Assembly (NCBI GenBank): GCA_017613485.1
Contig: JAGADS010000208.1
Span: 1 to 6,693, forward strand
Direction: 5' to 3'
DNA length: 6,693 bases
DNA from: Treponema sp.
Lineage (GTDB): Bacteria > Spirochaetota > Spirochaetia > Treponematales > Treponemataceae
A program made the translations under genes and the position numbers. The notes beneath the pieces were generated by a model. The model did no database searches. It had not been told where the DNA came from and was given only the letters and a program-made list of their open reading frames with translations. The stretch's first letter is position 1, and every line of letters begins with the position of its first letter. This document shows, piece after piece, positions 1,048 through 6,642 of this stretch.

Positions 1048-3237
1048 ATGAAGCTTAAAGACCTTGGAACCGCAGTTGAACAGATTTCGGGTGTAGGCCC
1101 TTCCACCGCAAAGTGTCTGGCAAAGCTGAACATTTTTTCGGTGGCGGATTTGCTTTCGTTTTATCCGCGTGATTATGAGGACAGGACAAAGCGCAGGGCT
1201 CTTGCTGATTATACCGGAGGAAAAGTCCATACGGTTGCTAAGGTGATGGCACATGACTGGTTCGGTTACGGCCGTACTAAGACGCTTAAAATAGCTGTCA
1301 CCGACGGAACTGCATCGGCATGGCTTGTGGCATTCGGGCGTGCATTTCTGGAACGTTCAATTCCTGAGGGATGCATCATTCAGATTGACGGAAAATTCGA
1401 GGTAAAATACAACAGCCTTCAGTCCACGGCATTTGAGGTTCAGAAGCTTTCTGATGACGGTGAGTTAAAGGACTTGATGGATGCACCTGTTCCAGGAAGC
1501 CTTGTTCTGCCTGTCTATCCCTTGACCGAGGGCTTGAGTCAAAAAAACATACGCAAGGCTGTGGCATCTTCCTTAAATCAATATGGCAAAGGAATAGAGG
1601 ATGAAATACCCCGTGATATAATTGAAAGGCGTTCACTATTGTCTAAATCACAGGCACTGGAGCTTATTCACAGGCCCAAGACCATGGACGATGTGATAAA
1701 GGCAAGGCATACGCTTATTTACGAGGAGCTTTACCAGTTTGAGTATAAGCTTGCTTCCCGAACAATGGAACACAGAGGTTCTTTACCTGACGTTTCTGAG
1801 ACACAGGTATTTGAGCATTCATCCCAAAGCACAACTCCTAATGCGGCTCCGTATTTTTCAACTCCAGAAATAACAGAGGATGAATTCAAGAAGCAGCTTT
1901 CGCCCAGTCAGAAAAAACTCTATGAGCGATTGCCTTTTGCCCTTACACAGGGACAGATGAATGCCATAAGAGAGATGAACCGTGACATAGACAGAAGCCA
2001 GGATGAATACAGGACTATGCTTGAAAATCCCTCCAAGTTGAACGGCTCTCCATTTTCCATGCAGAGGCTTTTGCAGGGTGATGTAGGATCCGGAAAGACA
2101 CTCACTGCATTTTTCATGTGCCTACGTACAATCGACTACAAGGGACAGTGTGCTTTTCTTGCCCCGACGGAACTGCTTTCACGTCAACATGCGGAGAATG
2201 CGGCGGCAATGCTAGGACCATTGGGCATAAGGGTTGCATTTTTGACAGGAAACATAAAGGCTCAAGGCAGACAGAATCTTCTTGAGGCATTGAAAAAGGG
2301 AGACATAGACATTGTTGTCGGGACACATGCTCTTTTCAGCAGGAATGTAAGCTATAAAAACCTTCAGCTTGCGGTGATTGACGAGCAGCACAGGTTTGGT
2401 GTGGCACAGAGGGAATCAATTGTTGCAAAGGGACGTGTCACTTCCGGAGACAAGACTCACAGCCCGGATGTTCTTATGATGAGCGCGACACCCATTCCGC
2501 AGACTCTTGCGCTTACGGTATTCGGTGATCTGGATGTAACTGTAATACGGACAATGCCGGTTGGGCGTAAAAGCGTAAAGACATATCTTAGTGTCATGGG
2601 ACATGAGGAGAATGTCTACAGTGCGGTAAGAAAAGAGATAGAAAAGGGACACCAGGCATATTTTGTCTACCCCCGCATAGCAGAGCAGGTTGAAGGAGCA
2701 CTTAAATCAGCGGAGGAAATGCACGGTTTTTTAAGCCAGAAAGTTTTCCCGAATCATAAAGTTGCCCTTATCCACAGTAAGGTTGATGAGGAAGAGCAGA
2801 ATCAGATTCTAAGGGAATTCCGCGATGGAAAGATTGATGTCCTTGTAGCCACCACGGTTGTTGAGGTAGGCGTTGACGTACCCAATGCCACATGTATCGT
2901 AATTGAGCACGCTGACAGATTTGGGCTTGCAGAACTGCACCAGCTTAGGGGCAGGGTAGGCCGCGGAACGGAGCAGTCATATTGCTTCCTGATTTACGGT
3001 AAGAATATCAGTGAGGACGGAATACAGAGGATGAAAGCCCTGCACGAAAGTACTGACGGATTTGTTATTGCAGAGGAGGACCTTAAGCTGAGGGGACCCG
3101 GACAGATGACAGGCACCATGCAGTCCGGTTATCTTTCTCTTGGTATTGCAGACCTTGTGCGGGACAAAGACCTGTTGAATCTTGCCCGCTATGATGCTTT
3201 TACAGAGTGCCGTAAGACTTTCTCATGCAACGTATGA
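1048..3237 (+). CDS. recG: ATP-dependent DNA helicase RecG
   Basis: RecG is a cytosolic superfamily 2 translocase that remodels stalled forks, R-loops and Holliday junctions. Seen in order in 729 residues: a helix-hairpin-like start (ISGVGPSTAKCLAKL, about 13-27), a wedge OB domain (about 58-150), and Walker A GDVGSGKT at 344-351 with K350. Then come the RecG-typical DEQH at 445-448, SAT at 479-481, ATTVVEVGVDVP at about 601-612, QLRGRVGRG at 632-640, and the translocation-motif region RGPG through QSG at 682-694. All catalytic motifs are intact. Two polar insertions relative to E. coli RecG precede Walker A, at about 245-282 and 315-335. After the translocation region only a short tail remains, roughly 15-25 residues shorter than in the E. 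coli or Bacillus proteins. The last 15 bp overlap the converging sigma gene. The ATG lies 6 bp after the upstream stop with no clear ribosome binding site, suggesting coupled translation; the N-terminal match supports this start. Confidence 0.95.
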   Translation: MKLKDLGTAVEQISGVGPSTAKCLAKLNIFSVADLLSFYPRDYEDRTKRRALADYTGGKVHTVAKVMAHDWFGYGRTKTLKIAVTDGTASAWLVAFGRAFLERSIPEGCIIQIDGKFEVKYNSLQSTAFEVQKLSDDGELKDLMDAPVPGSLVLPVYPLTEGLSQKNIRKAVASSLNQYGKGIEDEIPRDIIERRSLLSKSQALELIHRPKTMDDVIKARHTLIYEELYQFEYKLASRTMEHRGSLPDVSETQVFEHSSQSTTPNAAPYFSTPEITEDEFKKQLSPSQKKLYERLPFALTQGQMNAIREMNRDIDRSQDEYRTMLENPSKLNGSPFSMQRLLQGDVGSGKTLTAFFMCLRTIDYKGQCAFLAPTELLSRQHAENAAAMLGPLGIRVAFLTGNIKAQGRQNLLEALKKGDIDIVVGTHALFSRNVSYKNLQLAVIDEQHRFGVAQRESIVAKGRVTSGDKTHSPDVLMMSATPIPQTLALTVFGDLDVTVIRTMPVGRKSVKTYLSVMGHEENVYSAVRKEIEKGHQAYFVYPRIAEQVEGALKSAEEMHGFLSQKVFPNHKVALIHSKVDEEEQNQILREFRDGKIDVLVATTVVEVGVDVPNATCIVIEHADRFGLAELHQLRGRVGRGTEQSYCFLIYGKNISEDGIQRMKALHESTDGFVIAEEDLKLRGPGQMTGTMQSGYLSLGIADLVRDKDLLNLARYDAFTECRKTFSCNV

Positions 3238-4062
3238 TGCAAGGCGCTCCATGCGTGCGGGATGCTGCATTCTTACGATTGCCTTTTTCTCTATCTGGCG
3301 TATTCTTTCTTTTGTAAGGTTGCATACGGCTCCGACTTCCTTGAGTGACATAGGCTTGTCTCCGTTAAGACCGTAGCGCAGGCGAAGAACCCTTGCCTCA
3401 TTTGGCCTTAATGTATCCAGTATGCGGGAAATGTCATCCTTCATGGATTCGTTAATTGCATGTTCCTCTGGTGAGACAGAAGTTGTATCCTCCAGGAGTT
3501 CTCCTACAGACCTTGTTCTTTCTCCATTGCCGGAAACCTCTGCATCAAGGCTTATCATCTCACGTGAAAGGTTTATCATCTCGCGGATGTGTGCATCGTC
3601 CATACCCAGCATCTTGCCGATTTCCATTACTTCCTCTTCCTCGGATTTTTTGCTTCCGATTATCTTGCGTGCCTTGTCAATCTGTACAAGCTCGTTGCAT
3701 CTGTTTAATGGAATGCGTATCATGCGGCTTTTCTCGCAGATGGCCTTGAGGATTGCCTGCCTGATCCACCATACGGCATAAGAGATAAAGTGAAAACCTT
3801 TGCTAACATCGTAGCGTTCAATAGCGTTAAGAAGTCCTATGTTGCCCTCGCTGATTAAGTCAAGGAGGTCCAGTCCCTGATTCTGGTAGTTTTTTGCCAC
3901 CTTTACGACAAAACGCAGGTTAGCGTTGATAATCTTCTGCTTTGCCTCTTCATCACCGGCTGCGGCTTTTGCGGCAAGTTCAATTTCCTCTTCACGTGTC
4001 AACAGAGGAATGCGGTTGATTTCCTTAAGATACATGTTCAGGGTTTCTTTGTCGTTAATCAT
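3223..4062 (-). CDS. Sigma-70-family RNA polymerase sigma factor (group 2-like, no region 1.1)
   Basis: This is a promoter-recognition subunit of RNA polymerase, 279 residues from the ATG at 4062. Seen: region 1.2 (MYLKEINRIPLLTREEE, residues 10-26) and region 2 from NLRFVVKVAKNY (48-59) through DLISEGNIGLLNAIERYD (68-85). The -10-binding stretch is FHFISYAVWWIRQAI (90-104), then region 3 begins RMIRIPLNR. Region 4.2 has a helix-turn-helix at about 239-261 (SLKEVGAVCNLTKERIRQIE). It has no acidic region 1.1 or long non-conserved insert, so it is shorter than a housekeeping RpoD. The usual KFSTYATWWIRQAI is altered to HFISYAVWWIRQAI, which suggests an alternative factor. The start is set by AAGGAG 8 nt upstream; the longer TTG start at 4119 falls inside a sigma-54 promoter. 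Spirochaete annotations may call such genes rpoD, sigA or rpoS-like, so I give no symbol. The 3' end overlaps recG. Confidence 0.93.
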   Translation of the reverse strand: MINDKETLNMYLKEINRIPLLTREEEIELAAKAAAGDEEAKQKIINANLRFVVKVAKNYQNQGLDLLDLISEGNIGLLNAIERYDVSKGFHFISYAVWWIRQAILKAICEKSRMIRIPLNRCNELVQIDKARKIIGSKKSEEEEVMEIGKMLGMDDAHIREMINLSREMISLDAEVSGNGERTRSVGELLEDTTSVSPEEHAINESMKDDISRILDTLRPNEARVLRLRYGLNGDKPMSLKEVGAVCNLTKERIRQIEKKAIVRMQHPARMERLASYVA

Positions 4063-4070
4063 ATTGTACG

Positions 4071-4076
4071 CTCCTT
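4071..4076 (-). promoter_or_regulatory. Ribosome binding site deciding the sigma factor start
   Basis: On the minus strand AAGGAG ends 8 nt before the ATG at 4062. Its position supports a 279-residue product rather than a 298-residue one starting at the TTG at 4119. Confidence 0.82.
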
Positions 4077-4102
4077 GCGGTTTTCTCTCTTGATTATTTA
4101 AC

Positions 4103-4119
4103 AGCAAGTAGCGTGCCAA
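4103..4119 (-). promoter_or_regulatory. Sigma-54 (RpoN) promoter of the sigma factor gene
   Basis: The minus strand reads TTGGCACGCTACTTGCT. This matches the sigma-54 consensus YTGGCACG-N4-TTGCW at every specified position, with the invariant GG (4117-4116) and GC (4105-4104) separated by the required 10 nt. The predicted transcription start is near 4092, giving a leader of about 30 nt that contains the AAGGAG site. Under equal base frequencies, such a match is expected well under once per hundred windows of this size. Known of the class: transcription from it would need RpoN plus an ATP-hydrolysing enhancer-binding activator, neither of which is encoded in this window. Confidence 0.85.
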
Positions 4120-4133
4120 GTGCAGAAATATGC

Positions 4134-4180
4134 CTGAAATTTAATAAAAATTGCTGAAATCAATGAAAATTGAATGATTT
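4134..4180. repeat. AT-rich segment with paired CTGAAAT direct repeats and an imperfect dyad
   Basis: On the plus strand CTGAAAT occurs at 4134-4140 and again at 4154-4160, exactly 20 bp apart (two helical turns). It runs into an imperfect dyad, AAATCAAT (4157-4164), GAAA, ATTGA and then TGATTT (4175-4180). The block lies roughly 40-90 bp upstream of the predicted sigma-54 start, where DNA-bending or activator sites may lie. The repeats are short and AT-rich, so chance is a real alternative. Confidence 0.3.
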
Positions 4181-4287
4181 TCCGTGTTTTTTGAGGACAA
4201 TCATGCTTTAGGAGAGGTTATAAGAGGCATTTTGATACAGCAGTTATTTTTTGTTGAAAGATTTGGGTCAATTTGACGCAGTGAATG

Positions 4288-4314
4288 CCATTACCGGATC
4301 AAGTCCGGCAATGG
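4288..4314. repeat. REP-like palindrome in the groES-sigma gap
   Basis: The arms CCATTACCGGA and TCCGGCAATGG flank a 5-nt loop. As minus-strand RNA the one mismatch becomes a G-U pair, so all 11 stem positions pair. It starts 15 bp after the groES stop codon. Neither strand has a T-run after the stem, so it is not a standard intrinsic terminator. It could be a dispersed REP-type palindrome, a 3'-end stabiliser of groES mRNA, or a binding site about 195-220 bp upstream of the predicted sigma-54 start. The CCGGACTTGATCCGG core resembles repeated palindromes I recall from other bacterial genomes, but I could not check copy number. Confidence 0.6.
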
Positions 4315-4329
4315 TACAGGATCCTGTCC

Positions 4330-4602
4330 TTATTCTATGGTGGCAATGATATCTGAGTTTTTAAGAATCAAATAATCCTCGCCGTCGATTTTGATGGCTG
4401 TTCCGGAATATTTGTCATACAAAACCTTGTCACCTGGCTTTACGGTGATTTTTTCCTTTTCTGTTCCAGGTCCTACGGCTTCAACAACTGCCTGCTGGGT
4501 TTTTTCCTGGGCTGTCTCTGGGATAAAAAGACCGCCTGCTGTCTTTGTCTCTGCTGCGGCCTGCTTTACTAGTACACGGTCTGCCAAAGGTTTTACTTTC
4601 AT
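4330..4602 (-). CDS. groES: Co-chaperonin GroES (Hsp10)
   Basis: GroES is the heptameric lid that caps GroEL and closes the ATP-driven folding chamber in the cytosol. Seen in 90 residues: the family start MKVKPLADRVLVKQ, a mobile loop at about 15-36 whose GroEL-contacting tip is GGLFIP (23-28; E. coli has GGIVLT), AVVEAVGPG (38-46), VKPGDKVLYDKYSG, and the closing DYLILKNSDIIATIE. It is slightly shorter than E. coli GroES (97). The missing residues fall after GPG, in the roof hairpin region. No groEL adjoins it, unlike the usual groESL operon; I recall the same separation in T. pallidum. GGAGG lies 6 nt upstream of the ATG. No CIRCE operator (TTAGCACTC-N9-GAGTGCTAA) is present upstream, so HrcA control is not indicated. 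Confidence 0.97.
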   Translation of the reverse strand: MKVKPLADRVLVKQAAAETKTAGGLFIPETAQEKTQQAVVEAVGPGTEKEKITVKPGDKVLYDKYSGTAIKIDGEDYLILKNSDIIATIE

Positions 4603-4608
4603 ATTTTT

Positions 4609-4613
4609 CCTCC
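4609..4613 (-). promoter_or_regulatory. Strong ribosome binding site of groES
   Basis: GGAGG on the minus strand, within TGGAGGAA, lies 6 nt before the groES ATG. It is the strongest Shine-Dalgarno site in the window, in keeping with an abundant protein. Confidence 0.85.
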
Positions 4614-4656
4614 ATAAAAATCACAGGGATACATGGAATTGCACCTGCTTATCTAT

Positions 4657-4685
4657 AATATAATAAAAAATTCATGTTTCGGCAA
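4657..4685 (-). promoter_or_regulatory. groES: Likely sigma-70 promoter of groES
   Basis: In the 93-bp gap between the TPR gene and groES, the minus strand has TTGCCG (4685-4680, four of six to TTGACA), a 17-bp AT-rich spacer and TATATT (4662-4657, five of six to TATAAT). The leader to the ATG would be about 50 nt. The surrounding A/T-rich run offers alternative -10 registers, so the exact box is uncertain. Confidence 0.5.
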
Positions 4686-4695
4686 ATTTTTCTTT

Positions 4696-6642
4696 TTATT
4701 TGCGGTTTTCCTCTTCCTGGACTTGCTGAAGAATGAACCTTGCCTTGTTGTGCGAGGGGTTGAGCTTTATGGCATACTGAAGTGAGCGTACTGCACTGTG
4801 GAAGTCATGCAGGTAGTAGCTTTCTTTTCCCATGCGGTACAGGATTTCTGCCTTGACAAGAGGATCTGTAGAGCGTGAGGATGCCTTGTTCAGATAATCA
4901 ACTGCAACGGCTCCCTGTTTTGTTCCAGCGTAGATGTTGCCCATGTTTATATAGGAATTAACCACAGCCTCGTTCTGTCCTGTAGAATTCATTACAGGGC
5001 TGCGGTCTGAGTAAGAGTCGATGATATACTGGTAAATCGGTATGGCTTTGTCATATCTTCCGTCGTAAACACAGAACCATGCGGAAATCTCATTTTCCCA
5101 TAGAGAAAGCTCCTCTGGATGATCCCATGGAACAAAGGTCTCTGCCTTTTTCTTCTTCTTTTTTGAATCATCAGCAGGCTGCCTTGAGGCATTCTCATAA
5201 CGTGTGAACAAATCACGTGCTTCCTCGACATAATTGCTTTCAAGTAAAGTGACGATTGCGTAGTGAACGATTTCTGCCGGGTAGAGTGAAGTTCCCTGCT
5301 CGTTCTTTTCCAATAGAGGCCATACTCTTGCGGCTCTTTGGGCGGGTTCCGTAAGAGAAGCGGCTTCTGCCTCAAGTATTTCCTGAAGGACGATTAAATC
5401 TGCCGACGGATTTTTCTCCTTTGCGGCCTGAATGAGAACTATTGCATCCTGAACAGTAATGTCGGGTATAGAGTTTTCCTTCTCCATTTTTATGGTTGCA
5501 AGTCCCGATGCCCTGATGTGTGCTGTCATTTTGTCATCCGGAGGACGGCGCATCTGCTGGATTGCAAATTCTCCATAGGCGGCAAGACCAGGCCTGTAGT
5601 CCGGGAAACGGGTTACAAGATCATGGAGCCTGTCGTATTCTGTAACGTGGTCATCGGTTGTGCGTGAATAAAGAGCACTGTTTACATAGAGAATCGGGAG
5701 TATCTTGGAGTTTTTAACTTTGTCTTCTTTTCCCTTTATCTGAGCAAGAATCTCATCCCTTGTCTTTTCTGAATCACTGTCCATGCCCAGAATGTACTGG
5801 TTGTCGGATTTCAGAGCCATGAACTCAAGGCTGGTTGCAAGGTCATTAAAGTCCGGGGCATGTGCGTTAAGTGCCTCAAGGCTTTCTGCATAGCGTCCGC
5901 AGTCGAACATGACAAGTGCCCAGAAAAGCGAATCCTTTGCATCTTCCAGCGTGGAGGGATATTTGGCGGCTGCCGAACCGTAGTTTCCTGCCCTCATGTC
6001 AAGAACAGCAGCATTCCAGTTCCATTTTGGCCTTTTAGATCCTCTGAATGCATCCTGATATACTGTGGCAAACCTGCTGTCATAGAAAATCTCGTTGAAT
6101 CTGGAGGAATCTTTTTTCCATTCCTTGTCTTCTTTGCTTGCCCTTCCACCGAAAATCTCGTTTGCACTGAGGTGTTCGTTTATTGCTCTCCTGAATACAG
6201 CTTCCGCATATATAGATCCGTATTTTGTTCCTGAAAGGCTCTTTGATTTTTTCAGTGCCTCTTTAAATCTTCCCTGATTAAGCAGGAAATTTGAATATAC
6301 GGCAATCAGCTCAATTGAAGAACGGTCTTTTTTAATTGCCTTTTTGAGTGTTTTCTCCGCAAGATTCGAATCGCCAAGGGTCTCGTAGCGCTTAAAGACA
6401 CCAAGACGGTCCAGAGTTGTGCCTGCCTGCTTTGATGCCTGATTAAGGTAACCAAGTGCCTGTTTAGTATCCCCGATTGAAATAGCCTGATCCGCCATGT
6501 CCAGAAGTGAAGTAATGGATCCTCCCTCTGAATGGGTAGTACACGAAAGTGCCAGACATGACAAAACCACCGAGGCCGCAATTAGCATCAGTGGTCTTAA
6601 AAGCGTATGTAATCCTGATTTACTTTTCTTTTTAATATTCAA
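4696..6642 (-). CDS. Large TPR-repeat lipoprotein, function unknown
   Basis: This 648-residue predicted lipoprotein has tetratricopeptide-type helical repeats. Seen: a basic N-terminus (KKKSK), a hydrophobic stretch at about 17-33, and a spirochaete-style lipobox ending at C34 (ALSC; VLSC at C29 is the alternative), so a lipid-anchored envelope protein is likely. TPR-like helix pairs occupy about 40-125 (for example DTKQALGYLNQASKQ and LAEKTLKKAIKKD). The clearest are near the C-terminus from about 559 (INMGNIYAGTKQGAVAVDYLNKA; YYLHDFHSAVRSLQYAIKLNP). The middle is less regular helical repeats, with a six-lysine run at 494-499. The TTG start is chosen because it gives the signal peptide its charged end and overlaps the nusB stop as TTGA, suggesting coupling. 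The next Met (19) would remove the n-region. No enzymatic motif was recognised; a scaffold or partner-binding role is inferred from the TPRs only. Confidence 0.85.
   Translation of the reverse strand: MNIKKKSKSGLHTLLRPLMLIAASVVLSCLALSCTTHSEGGSITSLLDMADQAISIGDTKQALGYLNQASKQAGTTLDRLGVFKRYETLGDSNLAEKTLKKAIKKDRSSIELIAVYSNFLLNQGRFKEALKKSKSLSGTKYGSIYAEAVFRRAINEHLSANEIFGGRASKEDKEWKKDSSRFNEIFYDSRFATVYQDAFRGSKRPKWNWNAAVLDMRAGNYGSAAAKYPSTLEDAKDSLFWALVMFDCGRYAESLEALNAHAPDFNDLATSLEFMALKSDNQYILGMDSDSEKTRDEILAQIKGKEDKVKNSKILPILYVNSALYSRTTDDHVTEYDRLHDLVTRFPDYRPGLAAYGEFAIQQMRRPPDDKMTAHIRASGLATIKMEKENSIPDITVQDAIVLIQAAKEKNPSADLIVLQEILEAEAASLTEPAQRAARVWPLLEKNEQGTSLYPAEIVHYAIVTLLESNYVEEARDLFTRYENASRQPADDSKKKKKKAETFVPWDHPEELSLWENEISAWFCVYDGRYDKAIPIYQYIIDSYSDRSPVMNSTGQNEAVVNSYINMGNIYAGTKQGAVAVDYLNKASSRSTDPLVKAEILYRMGKESYYLHDFHSAVRSLQYAIKLNPSHNKARFILQQVQEEENRK

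Follow-up and report, generated by a model that had tools for sequence, protein, structure and literature searches.

A conserved sigma-54-type promoter and an enhancer-like upstream palindrome precede sigX, a sigma-70-family gene of Treponema and related spirochaetes

The window analysed here, meaning the whole stretch of 6,693 nucleotides of Treponema sp. DNA, carries a gene for a sigma-70-family factor, here called sigX, which lies tail to tail with recG and has groES as its upstream neighbour on the same strand (Table 1). The recG (plus strand) and sigX (minus strand) genes overlap by 15 bases (3223-3237), and past groES there is a gene for a 648-amino-acid TPR-repeat protein (4696-6642, minus strand), the N-terminus of which reads as lipoprotein-like. 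A Pfam scan matched regions 1.2, 2, 3 and 4 of SigX, as expected of a member of the sigma-70 family, and returned no match to region 1.1. The sigX frame begins at TTG 4119 in the list of open reading frames (298 amino acids); the ATG at 4062 is favoured as the start because the ten closest relatives, which are 92 to 87% identical to SigX, are 277-281 amino acids in length. The source names for two of these ten both read RpoD/SigA of Treponema sp. No Rfam match was found anywhere in the window, and no terminator-like site between 3950 and 4800.

Table 1. Features of the sigX locus, in window coordinates
Feature	Position	Strand	Basis and remarks
sigX, sigma-70-family factor, 279 aa	3223..4062	-	Pfam and model scans; tree
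Ribosome-binding site AAGGAG	4071..4076	-	Sequence; 8 nt before ATG
Predicted transcription start	4092..4093	-	Predicted from promoter geometry, about 12 nt past GC
Sigma-54-type -24/-12 promoter TGGCACGCTACTTGCT	4103..4118	-	0 mismatches, unique in window; GG 4117-4116, GC 4105-4104
Weak second palindrome copy	4223..4239		3 of 12 mismatches; 41 bp from first
Candidate enhancer (UAS), exact TGNGTCA-N3-TGACNCA	4264..4280		Exact match; centre 167 bp upstream of -12
groES, upstream neighbour	4330..4602	-	Pfam and model scans; candidate UAS sits in groES-sigX gap

The minus-strand sequence TTGGCACGCTACTTGCTGTTAAATAATCAAGAGAGAAAACCGCAAGGAGCGTACAATATG holds a full sigma-54 core and the ATG at 4062 together with a good ribosome-binding site; counted from the predicted start, the leader is about 30 nt long. 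Nothing in the window apart from this core, TGGCACG-N4-TTGCT, matches the sigma-54 consensus exactly; the GG and GC of the core are 10 nt apart, which is the sigma-54 -24/-12 geometry, and 42 nt separate the GC of the -12 element from the sigX ATG. The first-pass annotation, made from the sequence alone, had described a full-match core with this GG to GC distance about 40 bp upstream of the ATG of a sigma-70-family gene lacking region 1.1, a start near 4092, a leader of about 30 nt and a correctly spaced AAGGAG, and on all of these points the present analysis agrees with it. Matches with up to three mismatches number 13 in the window against 9.57 expected, which is chance level, so that the exact match alone carries weight; about 0.002 exact matches would be expected in 6,693 bases, assuming even base use and counting both strands.

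The sigma-54 consensus, set in advance from general knowledge, was then scanned for in the sequence 5' of the eighth codon of each sigX orthologue, in the window and at 162 further loci, these being the best match listed per genome for a list of 198 genomes plus six second copies. Conservation of the -24/-12 elements before orthologous genes had been put forward as a check by the first-pass annotation, and a site with at most two mismatches was found in 143 of the 163 upstream regions (no mismatch in 52, one in 62, two in 29); the exact matches include that of locus L009 from Breznakiella homolactica. The regions belong to species related to one another and do not represent independent events. 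The controls were almost empty: the site occurred in 0.5% of shuffles (20 per region, 3,260 in total), in 1/163 regions on the reverse strand, in 1/489 windows inside the gene, in 1/474 windows further upstream and before none of 24 rpoD genes, three of which had less than 300 nt upstream (45, 132 and 222). The scored letters hold across these 143 sites (the GG and GC being demanded by the scan) whilst all four positions of the spacer are variable, and the site is kept in sigX loci down to 46% protein identity.

Three of the 20 regions without a site are outgroups (L016, L017 and L052, which stand inside the 163 and outside the 160 considered below), and in five others TGGCACG-N4-TTG is kept and the TTGCW half differs by a single letter. 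Neither the site nor the palindrome described below was found at sigX copies L168, L169, L173, L185 and L227, which belong to G052 (two), G140, G198 and G156; G052, G140 and G198 each hold another sigX copy with the site (L224, L225 and L226). The count leaves out one truncated locus (L012), three duplicates (L085, L092 and L093), G124, in which the match lies 47 bases from the contig start, and G184, and the sigX loci of G051, G085 and G098, which ranked below the matches listed and are outside the 163, have the site in 3/3 cases.

A feature which the first-pass annotation had missed lies further upstream. Short words strongly enriched upstream of the sigX promoters assemble into the palindrome TGNGTCA-N3-TGACNCA, and the words from one half of the loci turn up again in the other half. 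With up to 2 of 12 mismatches allowed, 137 of 160 sigX regions have the palindrome, as against 0.9% of shuffles, the former figure being counted in the same regions that yielded the element and hence not an independent count; its spacing and the hsp20 test given below are independent of its discovery. A spacer of exactly 3 occurs at 79 loci, compared with 0 or 1 for other spacers, the median position is 129 bp before the -12 element, and pairs of copies with up to three mismatches lie at exactly 40 bp in 108 cases, at 41 bp in 10 and at 80 bp in 14. This is the layout of NtrC-type enhancers, that is, a palindrome 80-200 bp upstream which is often paired in helical phase. At chance level when taken by itself, the weak second copy in the window draws its support from its distance to the first, the spacing in relatives being 40-41 bp.

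The palindrome is absent within two mismatches from 23 of the 160 regions, that of G183 included; in the two close relatives G183 and G165 the copy before sigX has 3 and 2 mismatches, respectively. Genome-wide counts with at most one mismatch exceeded those of a reversed control in G001 (8 vs 1) and G072 (5 vs 3), and were not above it in G183 (1 vs 1) and G165 (0 vs 3). We regard the palindrome, which is new here, as a conserved enhancer-like element, its binding by a regulator being a prediction.

Both proteins which a relay of this type would need, RpoN and an enhancer-binding protein, had been named by the first-pass annotation as things to look for, and both are found in the relatives. 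An RpoN DNA-binding domain was present in 17/17 genomes of the first sigX loci and RpoN in 193 of the 198 genomes of the class, whilst 20 of the 21 genomes scanned had at least one sigma-54 activator match (PF00158) above 150 bits; weaker PF00158 matches are unspecific, because the control gave them in 14/14 genomes. Ten of the genomes scanned for activators are small (at most 1.8 Mb) and have SigX; in seven of these ten a single activator match exceeds 150 bits, and all seven carry the palindrome before sigX with one or two mismatches. As for the remaining three, G069 has three strong activators, G098 two and G132 none, G132 keeping the sigX palindrome despite this; larger relatives have between 2 and 5 or more. 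The small genomes which have one strong activator match and keep the palindrome provide the strongest link between the palindrome and its predicted reader.

In the activator tree, 19 of 29 activators fall in an Rrp2-like group (support 91/89, below the program's star level) which takes in the Borrelia-like activator and all seven single ones, two of the latter reading GAFTNA instead of GAFTGA. Three Rrp2-like proteins were scanned with Pfam, and each has a receiver, a sigma-54 AAA+ and a Fis-type HTH domain; a kinase-like ORF lies directly upstream of the Rrp2-like gene in the six cases read (confirmed by Pfam for L375). In the 11 genomes where murG and the activator gene were both located on one contig, among them the Borrelia-like G058, the two are on the same strand, with murG some 4 kb upstream.

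A pattern search across G072, one of the genomes with a single strong activator match, pointed to sigX, hsp20 and murG. For hsp20, 30 genomes were searched, 26 of which had a match, and 30 of the 45 matches were fetched and 29 read (L418 was left out). The sigma-54 site was found at 26 of these 29 loci, two of which (in G072 and G001) had prompted the test, and the site together with the palindrome at 24; counted by genome, the figures are 24/25 for the site and 22/25 for both elements. A later set of 20 fetched matches came from genomes without SigX. In those that are not Borrelia-like, the sigma-54 site precedes hsp20 in 9/9 and the palindrome in 8/9; in the Borrelia-like genomes the site was found in 6/11 and the palindrome, with up to three mismatches within 600 nt, in 0/11. 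The idea that Borrelia-like genomes have lost Hsp20 together with SigX does not hold in general, as 15/20 keep Hsp20; at the 11 hsp20 loci read there it is the palindrome that is missing. Three Borrelia-like hsp20 loci, L496 (G164), L499 (G036) and L495 (G211), have no sigma-54 site, and the other eight keep one with 1-3 mismatches; the RpoN match is absent in G164 and weak in G036 and G211, so that the decay of RpoN and the loss of the hsp20 site seem to go together in these genomes. Since a sigma-54 promoter and an enhancer-like palindrome also stand before hsp20, the evidence of that one gene suggests that the input is likely to be protein-folding or a related stress.

The palindrome lies just before the murG start in 6/25 genomes, and was accordingly rejected as a general rule for this gene; no sigma-54 site was seen at the murG palindrome in the two loci looked at. 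At the murG loci in question (L401, L402, L446, L447, L449, L454, L455 and L457), the palindrome is some 4 kb away from the kinase-activator pair, on its upstream side, wherever that pair was located, and it may be autoregulatory.

We propose, with a probability of roughly three in four, that the sigma-54-type promoter and the palindrome together enable sigX to be switched on by RpoN with an Rrp2-like enhancer-binding protein. What is observed is the set of elements with their conservation and spacing, along with the gene families and the phylogeny, and the proposal builds on this. A histidine kinase would phosphorylate the Rrp2-like activator, which would occupy TGNGTCA-N3-TGACNCA at a median distance of about 130 bp upstream, in many cases as a pair of dimers spaced by 40 bp; looping of the DNA would carry the ATPase of the activator to the RpoN polymerase at -24/-12, sigX would then be transcribed, and SigX would redirect the polymerase to its own promoters. 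By the same route, RpoN and the Rrp2-like activator on the palindrome would switch on Hsp20 as well as SigX. Binding, activation, the identity of the activator, the signal, the SigX targets and the role in stress are in this scheme what we infer. There is the alternative that the sigma-54 promoter is real and the palindrome is bound by another regulator, either a repressor or an activator outside the Rrp2-like group, which drives the relay. More than one strong activator match is seen in several relatives and none in one small palindrome-bearing genome, and the murG palindrome, which at two loci overlaps the start of the gene and has no sigma-54 site with it, looks operator-like rather than enhancer-like; however, the seven small genomes in which the sigX palindrome accompanies one strong activator speak for an Rrp2-like protein, and a distance of about 130 bp with 40 bp pairing fits an enhancer. 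We consider another regulator unlikely.

A second question is which sigma factor the relay would switch on. Were sigX the housekeeping sigma gene, as the source names RpoD/SigA would have it, the -24/-12 element would be one of several promoters, and the nearest relatives outside its clade, the Leptospira-type and Bacteroidota sigma factors, are in keeping with such a role. However, relatives have a separate long RpoD (579-733 amino acids in the 24 read), and SigX, which also shows no match to region 1.1, reached no RpoD or RpoS model cut-off within the top 25 of 60 families, scoring 239.6 of the 354 bits required by the RpoD model TIGR02393 and 251.7 of the 378.7 bits required by the proteobacterial RpoS model TIGR02394. 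Furthermore, a scan of 3950-4800 shows no sigma-70-like promoter between groES and sigX, one being located upstream of groES. A housekeeping role is thus very improbable, and the database name is called into question, as the gene is likely to encode an inducible stress sigma factor.

The sigma trees, which were thinned from 75 to 52 rows with long branches among those dropped, resolve a SigX clade (support 100/97), an RpoD clade (100/99) and a clade in which Borrelia-like RpoS is joined by the third sigma factors of other spirochaetes (100/99). SigX groups with the Leptospira-type and Bacteroidota sigma factors, and FISYAVWW is common to them. The first-pass annotation had taken FHFISYAVWW for an altered -10-binding stretch suggestive of a distinct regulon; the stretch is indeed present, but instead of being peculiar to this gene it is the family norm, the Bacteroidota sigma factor L027 reading FKFISYAVWW and the two spirochaete RpoD proteins compared reading FKFSTYATWW. 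Judged by these sequences, the region 2.4 stretch of SigX is inherited within the family. An odd sigma factor of the small genome G192 (L228) is near both SigX and the RpoS-like proteins, its tree position being unsure, and is preceded by an exact sigma-54 site.

It might also be argued that the sigma factor in the window is the treponemal RpoS and the relay the RpoN-RpoS cascade of Borrelia itself, since the wiring is alike in outline and 19/20 Borrelia-like rpoS genes have a sigma-54 site. In the RpoS-like clade as a whole the site precedes 71 of the 81 loci read (72 with a slightly longer window). However, the two sigma factors fall in separate clades, and forcing SigX and Borrelia-like RpoS into one clade costs 50.6 log units and is rejected (p-AU 0.0002), as is placing E. 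coli RpoS with the SigX clade (25.9 log units, p-AU 0.005). Counting matches with a best E below 1e-90, 160 of the 198 genomes have SigX and 119 have an RpoS-like protein, with 89 holding both families, 71 SigX only, 30 RpoS-like only and 8 neither. Moreover, the palindrome occurs within two mismatches in 0/72 RpoS-like promoters, and in one within three. SigX is therefore ruled out as the orthologue of Borrelia RpoS, and the idea that the two cascades are one and the same is very improbable; of the Borrelia-like relay proposed by the first-pass annotation, the analogy stands and the orthology of the sigma genes does not.

An enriched word at the RpoS-like loci, AGCATATC, was considered as a second enhancer for that branch and rejected, as it appears to lie where the coding sequence of the gene upstream ends, a stretch that is conserved. 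Its 33 occurrences are common to a part of the RpoS-like loci (L296-L363 and L239-L246) with the same kind of upstream gene, and in Borrelia-like genomes too it occupies this position. The upstream gene resembles a flagellar rod gene, which would support the orthology of the RpoS-like loci.

Lastly, that the sites before sigX are chance or inherited sequence without function is scarcely credible, for although the motif is short, it is conserved down to 46% protein identity whilst its spacer letters are free, and it is nearly absent from the controls.

The enhancers of NtrC, NorR and PspF are paired palindromes located 100-200 bp upstream of -24/-12, and the NorR core is GT-N7-AC. The element before sigX resembles them in consisting of paired palindromes, and its inner GTCA-N3-TGAC agrees with the NorR core; it differs in its full sequence, in the 40 bp pairing and in having a binding protein that is a predicted one. 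TP1012 of T. pallidum is presumably the groES neighbour in that species, and would on this basis be a likely member of the SigX family; it is named 'RNA polymerase sigma factor' in the part of the source available (PMC5015957). The available passages of a survey of sigma-54 (PMC12316311) place COG0568 sigma genes under sigma-54, and likewise chaperones in Planctomycetota and Bacteroidota; they make no mention of Treponema or Borrelia, and those on Spirochaetia are without the pairing of sigX and hsp20. As far as titles and the openings of abstracts go, this promoter, the palindrome and the link to hsp20 are each unreported in Treponema, and papers on T. denticola may mention sigma-54 sites.

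The closest parallel is the Hk2-Rrp2-RpoN-RpoS pathway of Borrelia, in which a short sigma-70-family gene likewise has an RpoN promoter; a further common trait, seen here in the relatives, is a response regulator of NtrC type that is directly preceded by a kinase-like gene and lies in the murG neighbourhood. The sigma gene, by contrast, is a different paralogue, and the relay proposed here resembles that of the Lyme bacterium whilst running via another sigma gene. The two also differ in the enhancer-like palindrome: in the passages available of one study, purified Rrp2 of Borrelia burgdorferi bound no DNA near rpoS, on which it acts independently of an enhancer, and has a potential DNA-binding domain (PMC1976401), and Rrp2 is given as the only activator of this species in those of another (PMC11109971). 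In line with this, no palindrome was found before the 19 Borrelia-like rpoS genes with a sigma-54 site. The conservation of the element suggests that an RpoN-to-sigma relay goes far back and is general across the class, and the enhancer-like element before sigX and hsp20 offers a concrete candidate DNA target; we predict that the enhancer read by the Rrp2-like protein would be TGNGTCA-N3-TGACNCA. Tentatively, and at somewhat under even odds, we suggest an ancient, class-wide hub in which one Hk2-Rrp2 pair acting on a palindromic enhancer would drive a protein-stress regulon of SigX and Hsp20 via RpoN, beside an enhancer-free RpoN branch leading to RpoS, the Borrelia switch being the remnant left after the loss of SigX and of the enhancers. 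Such a history, if true, would explain why Rrp2 of Borrelia keeps a DNA-binding domain without a known site at rpoS.
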